In this document: in pieces, positions 2,920 through 5,219 of the stretch
Position numbering within the stretch: position 1 is the stretch's first letter
How the letters are laid out: each line of letters starts with the position of its first letter
IMG/VR virus record: IMGVR_UViG_3300046028_007535
Location: 1 to 29,641 of that record
Source: a virus
Direction: 5' to 3' (one strand)
DNA length: 29,641 nt
Made by a program: the position numbers and the translations under genes
Notes under the pieces: model-generated
The model's database searches: none
What the model saw: only the letters and a program-made list of their open reading frames with translations
What the model was told of the DNA's origin: nothing

Positions 2920-3282
2920 ATGAAAAATACGGTTATATCTTTTACAAAAAAACAAATCATCCAATTTAGTATTGGATTAGTAATATTGATGATATTGGTG
3001 TCTGCTCTAACACATAGAGCAGGCATTATTTATCAATCCGATAGTTACCAAAATAAAATTGATAGTCTGAATATTGAGTTAAAATATGTTAGAAAGAATC
3101 AAATTGCATTGGATGGTAGAATAAAATCATATAGCGATAGTATTTTTAAATTCAACAATAAAATAGATTCTTTAAATATAGCACTAATCACTACACAAAT
3201 ATATTATGGTAACAAAATTAAATCTATTAGGAATTATTCTCCTACTCAGCTTAACGACTTTTTCACAGAAAGATACAAGTAA
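2920..3282 (+). CDS. Inner-membrane coiled-coil protein, i-spanin (Rz)-like
   Basis: 120 residues. A basic N-terminus (FTKKQ) precedes one membrane helix at about residues 13-31. The rest is charged and helical, so the likely topology is N-in with a periplasmic C-terminal domain. NKIDSLNIEL (45-54) recurs as NKIDSLNIAL (80-89), exactly 35 residues or five heptads later, which fits a coiled coil. The C-terminus SPTQLNDFFTERYK overlaps the start of the next gene by 77 bases in another frame. Single-span topology, a periplasmic coil and overlap with a second exported gene are the classic Rz/Rz1 spanin layout, which disrupts the outer membrane at lysis. I see no sequence homology to lambda Rz, so the assignment rests on architecture. 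No endolysin or holin is in the window. Confidence 0.55.
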   Translation: MKNTVISFTKKQIIQFSIGLVILMILVSALTHRAGIIYQSDSYQNKIDSLNIELKYVRKNQIALDGRIKSYSDSIFKFNNKIDSLNIALITTQIYYGNKIKSIRNYSPTQLNDFFTERYK

Positions 3283-3634
3283 AATTATTCTTCCATATCA
3301 TGTAGCTAAACTAGTAGCTATAGACTTGGTACAGGGAGATTCTGTTAAAGCTGAATTAATTCAAACAAAACAAATTCTTCAAGTAACTCAAGAAAAAATT
3401 AAAGCTCAAGATACAATTATTGTCTCATTTGAGAAGAAGGAAATCTTACACAAATCAGAAATCAAGATTTTAGGGTTAAAAGAAGAAACACATAAAGAAA
3501 AAATAAAAGAGCTAAAATCAACAAACGAGGATTTAGTTAAAAAAAATAATAGACTAAAAACTACAGCTCAAATGTTGGGTGGTGGGTTGATAGGAACACT
3601 AGCTATATTAGTTGCGTTTATAGCAATTAAATAA
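3206..3634 (+). CDS. Exported coiled-coil protein with C-terminal membrane anchor, spanin-partner-like
   Basis: 142 residues. The start at 3206 is supported by the signal peptide it creates: positive MVTK, then the hydrophobic LNLLGIILLLSLTTFSQ with a likely cleavage near residue 20. A long charged helix (about 45-118, rich in K, E, Q and L) is predicted to coil. Residues 122-141 (QMLGGGLIGTLAILVAFIAI) are a C-terminal membrane helix. There is no lipobox cysteine, so it is not a standard o-spanin or u-spanin lipoprotein, although its export signal plus C-terminal anchor recalls u-spanins. The first 77 bases overlap the preceding gene out of frame. I recall similar neighbouring pairs in Bacteroidota phages, usually unnamed. 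Terminase starts 5 bases after the stop. Confidence 0.55.
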   Translation: MVTKLNLLGIILLLSLTTFSQKDTSKIILPYHVAKLVAIDLVQGDSVKAELIQTKQILQVTQEKIKAQDTIIVSFEKKEILHKSEIKILGLKEETHKEKIKELKSTNEDLVKKNNRLKTTAQMLGGGLIGTLAILVAFIAIK

Positions 3635-3638
3635 CATT

Positions 3639-5219
3639 ATGGCTGAAGATATAAAAAATATAATAAGACAAGAATATATAAGATGTTCCCAAGATCCGGC
3701 ACATTTTATGAAAAAGTATTGTTTTATTCAACACCCACAAAGAGGTAGAATTCAATTTAATCTATATCCATTCCAAGAAAAAATATTACACTTATGGAGA
3801 GACAATCCATATTCTATAATATTAAAATCTAGACAGTTAGGTATATCTACATTAGCTTCAGGATATGCTCTTTGGTTGATGACGTTTCACCAAGACCGAA
3901 ACATATTAGCACTAGCAACAACACAAGCTACTGCTCGTAATCTTGTAAGTAAAGTCCAATTTATGTGGGAAAACCTCCCATCGTGGCTTAAGATAAAAGA
4001 AGCGGAAAATAATAAATTATCTTTAAGGTTAATAAACGGTTCAAAAGTACAAGCTAAATCATCCAATGCAGATGCCGCGCGATCAGAAGCCGTTTCTCTT
4101 CTAATAATAGATGAGGCTGCCTTTATAGATAATATTGAAGAGACATGGGCATCCGCTCAACAAACTCTATCAACTGGAGGTGGAGCTATAGTATTATCTA
4201 CTCCATATGGTACAGGTAACTGGTTTCATAAAACGTGGGTTAGAGCAGAAAATCAAGAAAACCAATTCCTACCAATTAAATTACCTTGGATGGTTCATCC
4301 CGAACGTGATCAATCATGGAGAGATAAACAAGATGATTTATTAGGTGATCCAAGATTAGCAGCACAGGAATGTGATTGTGATTTTTCTACATCTGGAGAT
4401 GTTGTATTTTTCCCTGAATATATAGAATTCTATGAAAAAACATATATTAAAGATCCATTAGAACGTAGAGGAGCAGACAGAAACCTATGGATATGGGAGC
4501 CAGCAGATTATTCTCGTTCGTATATGGTTGTAGCCGATGTTGCTAGAGGTGATGGAAAAGATTATTCTGGATTCCATATTTTAGATATTGAAACAAATAC
4601 ACAAGTAGGCGAATATAAAGGACAAATTGGAACAAAAGAATTTGGACATTTACTTTTTGGTATAGCAACCGAATATAACACAGCAATGTTAATTGTTGAA
4701 AATGCAAATATTGGATGGGCTACACTTCAAGTATTAATTGAGCGAGGTTATCCAAATCTATACTATTCTCCAAAAGGCGGTGAATTAAAATCCGATTCAT
4801 ATTTCAATGAATTTATGGATGTATCAAATATGGTAGCTGGATTTTCTATGACATCTAGAACTAGACCATTGTGTATAGGTAAATTCCAAGAAGCATTATC
4901 AGATAAAGGCGTTACAATCCAATCAAAACGTTTGATAGGAGAGATGAAAGTATTTGTTTGGAAAAACGGCAGAGCAGAAGCGCAAACAGGATACAATGAT
5001 GATTTAGTTATGCCGATGGCTATAGCTCAATTTATGCGTGATACTACATTTAAATTGAAACAGCAGGGTATTGATTTAACCAAAAGTATGTTGCAAAGCA
5101 TGTCAACATCTAAATATAATTTTTCTGGAGGGTACTCAAATAATGGAGCTAATGACAATCCTTGGGAAATGGATAACCCATATTCTCAAGGCAAAGATGA
5201 CCTTAAGTGGTTGCTTTAA
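3639..5219 (+). CDS. terL: Terminase large subunit, T4 gp17-like
   Basis: 526 residues (T4 gp17 is 610). This is the ATP-driven motor that cuts and pumps DNA into the prohead. ATPase domain: the adenine-contact region LYPFQEKIL (42-50), Walker A KSRQLGIST (63-71), Walker B LLIIDEAAF (154-162, D158 and E159), and coupling motif LSTP (186-189). Nuclease domain (RNase H fold): acidic residues D300 in VADVARGDGKDYSGF, E354 in IVENANIG, and D454/D455 in GYNDDLV. All key residues are present, so the enzyme should be active. The C-terminal tail after residue 480 is rich in S, N and G. In T4 the sheath and tube genes follow gp17; here the portal gene follows after 50 bases. No small terminase subunit is recognised. 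Confidence 0.96.
   Translation: MAEDIKNIIRQEYIRCSQDPAHFMKKYCFIQHPQRGRIQFNLYPFQEKILHLWRDNPYSIILKSRQLGISTLASGYALWLMTFHQDRNILALATTQATARNLVSKVQFMWENLPSWLKIKEAENNKLSLRLINGSKVQAKSSNADAARSEAVSLLIIDEAAFIDNIEETWASAQQTLSTGGGAIVLSTPYGTGNWFHKTWVRAENQENQFLPIKLPWMVHPERDQSWRDKQDDLLGDPRLAAQECDCDFSTSGDVVFFPEYIEFYEKTYIKDPLERRGADRNLWIWEPADYSRSYMVVADVARGDGKDYSGFHILDIETNTQVGEYKGQIGTKEFGHLLFGIATEYNTAMLIVENANIGWATLQVLIERGYPNLYYSPKGGELKSDSYFNEFMDVSNMVAGFSMTSRTRPLCIGKFQEALSDKGVTIQSKRLIGEMKVFVWKNGRAEAQTGYNDDLVMPMAIAQFMRDTTFKLKQQGIDLTKSMLQSMSTSKYNFSGGYSNNGANDNPWEMDNPYSQGKDDLKWLL

Follow-up and report, generated by a model that had tools for sequence, protein, structure and literature searches.

The window analysed in this work, namely the whole 29,641-nt stretch of virus record IMGVR_UViG_3300046028_007535, is a fragment of a T4-like phage in which two overlapping genes, referred to here as ORF1 and ORF2, precede the gene of the terminase large subunit (terL), with a gap of 4 nt between ORF2 and terL. 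The features of the locus are listed below; the insertion energies given here and throughout were estimated with published dG-predictor parameters and are valid for comparison only:

2920..3282, plus strand: ORF1, 120 aa, predicted i-spanin-like type II membrane protein with an N-terminal membrane helix, a periplasmic coil and a C-terminal ELxxFFTxRY-type motif
2956..3012, plus strand: ORF1 transmembrane helix, residues 13-31, estimated insertion energy -0.67 kcal/mol
3052..3075, plus strand: first NKIDSLNI octamer, ORF1 residues 45-52
3157..3180, plus strand: second NKIDSLNI octamer, ORF1 residues 80-87, 35 residues (five heptads) after the first
3206..3634, plus strand: ORF2, 142 aa, predicted to be exported without lipidation, a coiled-coil partner whose C-terminus is a hydrophobic tail
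3206..3282, plus strand: ORF1/ORF2 overlap, 77 nt, coding simultaneously for the C-terminal motif of ORF1 and the signal peptide of ORF2
3206..3265, plus strand: ORF2 signal peptide, residues 1-20, with a predicted signal peptidase I cut between S20 and Q21 (Q-rule)
3238..3279, plus strand: ORF1 C-terminal motif SPTQLNDFFTERYK, kept in most relatives and coded within the overlap
3290..3340, plus strand: conserved N-terminal stretch of mature ORF2, LPYHVAKLVAIDLVQGD, in relatives KPIARLVIKDLITGD
3296..3628, plus strand: single predicted helix of ORF2, residues 31-141, continuing into the tail
3572..3631, plus strand: ORF2 C-terminal hydrophobic tail MLGGGLIGTLAILVAFIAIK, residues 123-142, estimated insertion energy +0.09 kcal/mol
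3639..5219, plus strand: terL, a neighbour only, used as the marker of this slot in this branch

A first-pass annotation of this DNA had described two genes overlapping by 77 nt in different frames, the first of them encoding an N-terminal membrane helix and a coil, and the coordinates and reading frames bear this out, with a hydrophobic helix at residues 13-31 and the coil after it. The exact 35-residue repeat attributed to ORF1 holds as a spacing of five heptads, but the identity is confined to the octamer NKIDSLNI, found twice, and does not extend over 35 residues. With one N-terminal hydrophobic helix followed by a coil, ORF1 has the predicted topology of an i-spanin. Pfam and PHROG searches of ORF1 and ORF2 returned weak coil matches only: the Rz-like spanin family phrog_739 was weakly matched by 20 of 28 ORF1s (best 8e-5) amid many other coil families, matches which may be caused by coil composition, and the ORF1 of the window reached E=0.11 against the PHROG Rz-like spanin families (739, 214 and 89).

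As a check, the first-pass annotation had proposed a survey of Bacteroidota phages for the same pair, and loci were gathered by searches with ORF2, ORF1, terL, the ORF2 of Flavobacterium phage immuto and one divergent ORF2. ORF2 was present in 146 loci, 136 of which carry a complete ORF1 partner, comprising at least 107 distinct ORF2 proteins; a search of genome contigs with the immuto ORF2 returned no relatives. The overlap measures 74-128 nt in 106 of 107 pairs, with a single pair (L080) abutting, and the relative frame is identical in all 107, an arrangement within the embedded, overlapping or adjacent layouts of two-component spanin genes. Among 231 comparisons of close pairs, dN/dS outside the overlap was ~0.14 for ORF1 and ~0.12 for ORF2, and synonymous change decreased from 0.37 and 0.46 outside the overlap to 0.07 and 0.12 inside it, that is, about 4-5 times lower. 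The conservation of the overlap, together with this purifying selection, indicates that ORF1 and ORF2 are very probably both translated and under selection. Mean-field covariation between the two proteins, in either parallel or antiparallel arrangement, was not above that of shuffles (Neff ~51), gaps at the ends dominating. An automatic pair detector recovered the known pairs and one false match, and missed the pair of Croceibacter phage P2559S described below.

Pairs were found in two genomic contexts, either before terL, as in the window, or within lysis cassettes. Profiles built from the terL-slot members only matched the cassette ORF2s with E values of 1e-25 to 1e-32 and the cassette ORF1s with 1e-18 to 1e-21, and the ORF2 of the window aligned at 48% over 69 residues with a cassette ORF2 (L135). 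A cultured homologue was identified by tblastn with the relative L026, namely genes 83/84 of Flavobacterium phage immuto (MW353176), which lie shortly after a GH19 chitinase-type endolysin (gene 79; PF00182 above cut-off, phrog_181 endolysin 3e-63) and a holin (gene 80; PF05105 above cut-off), with terL ~73 kb from the pair. The annotated start of immuto gene 84 (L092:7950-8351), at record position 46085, falls within the signal peptide; translation probably begins at 46043, which would make the overlap 89 nt. From 80 viral loci related to the immuto ORF2, some on contigs that begin inside the lysis cluster, 57 carry a GH19 endolysin and/or a holin directly upstream, 14 are placed before terL and 9 were not assignable, none displaying both contexts. 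The holin and endolysin association typical of two-component spanins is found in these 57 relatives and in immuto, and neither gene was seen adjoining ORF1/ORF2 in the window; in one terL-slot phage (L161/G013), a GH19 gene lies at another site and is not accompanied by a pair. Since lysis genes stand beside the pair in most relatives and terL is distant in immuto, the pair travels with the lysis function and not with packaging, and the lysis role proposed in the first-pass annotation is supported by both the relatives and the cultured phage. Gene context thus supports ORF1/ORF2 as a putative mobile lysis module, rather than a part of the packaging machinery.

Upstream of the pair, several unrelated proteins, among them that encoded at 2083-2910 of the window and the products of upstream genes of L004 and L010, begin with a short helix of the type MKKSRLLEIIREEI, a possible capsid-targeting tag like those of T4 internal proteins. 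AT-hook-like RGRK motifs are also present in the 2083-2910 protein and in its relatives, which occupy a place where a small terminase could be. A conserved upstream gene encoding a FAD-dependent oxidoreductase is apparently split into halves by an inserted ORF in L010:1934-4015.

The signal peptide, coil and missing lipobox that had been ascribed to ORF2 were all recognized, with the signal ending in FS before Q, one predicted helix and a hydrophobic C-terminus at 123-142. The only invariant columns in a 29-sequence alignment of ORF2 are S20 and Q21, the signal peptide ends in Ser-Gln in 107 of 107 distinct ORF2s, and a canonical lipobox, the mark of the lipoprotein member of two-component spanins, occurs in 0 of 107. 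A Cys is present in the signal region of 6 of the 107, at a position where other ORF2s have other residues. The signal peptidase I substrates of Bacteroidetes typically expose a Gln that is then cyclised, known as the Q-rule (PMC5837995, PMC10653852), and therefore the presence of Ser-Gln in all ORF2s predicts cleavage by signal peptidase I without lipidation. As judged from these features, ORF2 is expected to be secreted in the ordinary way, with the C-terminal tail as its sole remaining attachment. The AlphaFold2 model of ORF2 presents a helix over residues 31-141 with a mean pLDDT of 85.9 (~94-97 over residues 41-110), and a search for solved structures of ORF2 found none.

Regarding the tail, the proposal that ORF2 is held by a membrane helix is plausible, but the segment is only marginally hydrophobic. 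Its median estimated insertion energy, meaningful only as a comparison, was +0.80 kcal/mol in the terL/other group and +1.47 kcal/mol in the cassette group, with 1 of 104 tails below zero, whereas the anchors of lipobox u-spanins taken as controls gave -3.8 (T1), -1.8 (6H) and -1.6 (11b) by the same estimate. Thus, as a membrane anchor the tail of ORF2 is borderline, which the anchors of true u-spanins are not, and the combination of a lipobox and a C-terminal TMD in one protein, which defines unimolecular spanins, is absent from ORF2. Most ORF2s have none or one residue after the tail, and the net charge of the 12 residues preceding it has a median of +3. Values above zero were likewise obtained for helices of the polytopic holin of immuto, and hence a tail as weak as that of ORF2 can still be an inner-membrane helix. 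Such a weak terminal segment may also pass the translocon and then enter a membrane from the periplasm.

The known spanin classes require a lipoprotein, and phages P2559S, P2559Y and B124-14 were listed as spanin-less (Kongari et al., 2018, PMC6139136); some Bacteroidota phages, in addition, are said to use only u-spanins (PMC12596118). ORF1/ORF2 resemble the two-component overlapping spanins of the Rz/Rz1 type (P2, T5) in the out-of-frame overlap, in a first gene encoding a type II inner-membrane coil, in an exported second product, and in the holin and endolysin accompanying them in many relatives; however, ORF2 differs from Rz1 in having no lipobox, a Q-rule site for signal peptidase I, and a long helix that runs out into a hydrophobic tail at the C-terminus. 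The order of export signal, periplasmic part and C-terminal hydrophobic segment in ORF2, together with the adjoining endolysin of many relatives, recalls the unimolecular spanins (T1 gp11, 6H gp36 and 11b PHG11b_49), although Ser-Gln replaces the lipobox Cys, the tail is far less hydrophobic, ORF1 is present and no significant profile match was obtained. The earlier statement that the layout fits neither described class therefore stands for the two published classes, but lipid-free alternatives had been foreseen, namely type I proteins anchored in the inner membrane by a C-terminal TMD and an OMP acting as o-spanin, both suggested without examples (Kongari et al., 2018, PMC6139136, section 15); the pair matches these predicted layouts.

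Bacteroidota phages differ among themselves in this respect, as Flavobacterium phages 6H and 11b carry ordinary lipobox u-spanins beside the endolysin. In Croceibacter phage P2559S, an N-anchored coil gene (gp29) directly follows the endolysin, and an N-anchored gene adjoins the endolysin in P2559Y and B124-14 as well. The P2559S gp29 is overlapped out-of-frame by an ORF at L207:27508-28065 (the pair spanning L207:27300-28065) whose product combines a Q-rule signal with a coil and a beta-like C-terminus ending in Trp; the annotated gp30 comprises only the last 79 codons of this longer ORF, a mis-annotation that hid the pair. It resembles ORF1/ORF2 in its position after the endolysin and in its N-anchored coil gene overlapped by a protein with a Q-rule signal and a coil, and differs in that sequence similarity was not detected and the C-terminus is beta-like instead of helical. 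An abutting, non-overlapping pair of the same build as ORF1/ORF2 was observed before terL in the T4-like Microcystis phage Mel-JY01 (L095), whose terL is 49% identical; this pair was not matched significantly by the family profiles, and has a Q-rule-like signal despite its host being given as a cyanobacterium.

In about a third of the loci with a readable slot before terL (29 of 84), a single gene of ~192-218 aa takes the place of the pair, the two forms occurring together in 0 loci. Its product has an N-terminal membrane helix followed by an invariant Cys, and four beta strands are predicted at its C-terminus (pLDDT ~70); a fold search with this one-gene type gave no match with E below 0.001. 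A relative of this gene in podovirus MW202828 adjoins an M15 peptidase endolysin. These features suggest that one gene replaces the pair, its product having its N-terminus in the inner membrane and its C-terminus perhaps in the outer one, which makes it a candidate single-protein bridge between the membranes. Small lipoproteins, similar to Rz1 in size and composition, were also located after the pair in three lysis cassettes. The immuto lipoprotein immuto35A_148 (217 aa), considered as a partner, was rejected, being absent in 13 related contigs. The corresponding loci are as follows:

L012-L018, L020, L021, L023, L027, L032, L034, L048, L052, L069, L072, L075-L077, L079, L081-L086, L088 and L089 (all in the slot before terL), and also L094:5950-6573: one-gene alternative
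L114:5533-5748, L130:4152-4343 and L133:1756-1944: Pro/Tyr/His-rich lipoprotein of 63-72 aa, 7-8 nt after ORF2

With the integration of these findings, ORF1/ORF2 are probably a lysis module of T4-like Bacteroidota phages, equivalent to a two-component spanin with a non-lipoprotein partner. We would regard the pair as working like a two-component spanin, with which its gene layout, ORF1 and context agree, and not as a member of that class, because the lipobox is lacking. ORF1 would be the inner-membrane subunit, with its N-terminus in the cytoplasm and its coil directed outward, and ORF2 would be exported by Sec and cut by signal peptidase I after Ser20, leaving an N-terminal Gln, probably as pyroglutamate, on a helix of ~16 nm with the hydrophobic tail at its end as only membrane attachment. 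The two proteins would bind each other and, after the action of holin and endolysin, would disrupt the outer membrane. The tail would enter a membrane from the periplasm, the outer one being slightly favored, in which case ORF1 and ORF2 would lie parallel to each other and bridge the periplasm. It counts against this reading that outer membranes very rarely contain helical anchors.

The main alternative is a variant of this reading that keeps the function in lysis and departs from it only in the membrane that holds the tail, the likelihoods given here to the alternatives not being mutually exclusive. Both proteins would sit in the inner membrane, the ORF2 tail as a type I anchor (N-out, C-in) and the two subunits antiparallel, their conserved far ends (the ORF1 C-terminal motif and the mature ORF2 N-terminus) gripping the outer membrane or a host outer-membrane protein. 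This arrangement has a real chance of being correct, though clearly less than even: the C-terminal anchors of the u-spanins of T1 and of Flavobacterium phages 6H and 11b, encoded beside the endolysin, and the type I proteins that Kongari et al. proposed as possible i-spanins speak for it, whereas the tail is much weaker than the u-spanin anchors and has little or no cytoplasmic extension, and nothing known would be left to hold the outer membrane, with a reach of ~16 nm. A three-part system, in which ORF1 would be the inner-membrane protein, ORF2 periplasmic and a small lipoprotein encoded elsewhere the real o-spanin, seems unlikely. The Pro-rich lipoproteins just past ORF2 in L114, L130 and L133 and those of 52-75 aa elsewhere in immuto and several relatives would suit it, but the former directly follow the pair in only 3 lysis-cassette loci, the two kinds look unlike each other, and no small lipoprotein was found in the window or in the 74-86 kb contigs of three terL-slot relatives, these genomes being incomplete.

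Functions other than that of a spanin were also weighed. Membrane-anchored periplasmic coils within a lysis cluster would equally fit an antiholin partner, and a lysis regulator (an antiholin-like or lysis-inhibition pair) or a superinfection-exclusion membrane protein could be imagined; we consider this improbable, given that an N-anchored coil gene overlapped out-of-frame by an exported partner is a typical Rz/Rz1 arrangement, that the slot can hold a single gene whose relative adjoins an endolysin, and that lipobox u-spanins lie beside the endolysin in other Bacteroidota phages. A role in packaging or head assembly, e.g., as small terminase, which the first-pass annotation had named as a finding that would speak against its proposal, is suggested by the position between a conserved gene and terL, only 4 nt away in the window; it is hardly credible in view of the signal peptide, the membrane helices and the company of lysis genes in the 57 relatives and in immuto, with its remote terL.

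Beyond the preferred reading of ORF1/ORF2 as a spanin equivalent, we tentatively suggest that many Bacteroidota phages might use a lipid-free spanin class, a generalization we hold as somewhat less probable than its opposite. In such a class, the exported partner would carry the outer-membrane element at its C-terminus, as a helical tail of weak hydrophobicity in ORF2 and as beta strands in P2559S, or this element would be part of the inner-membrane subunit itself, as in the one-gene beta type; both subunits would thus have the same orientation across the periplasm. Surveys requiring a lipobox have led to some Bacteroidota phages being called spanin-less or u-spanin-only, and a search rule is gained here, namely a Q-rule signal followed by a coil and a C-terminal element, encoded in overlap with an N-anchored coil gene. 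The conserved pair in the cultured phage immuto and the unannotated pair of P2559S make the breakage of the outer membrane without a lipid-anchored subunit directly testable.
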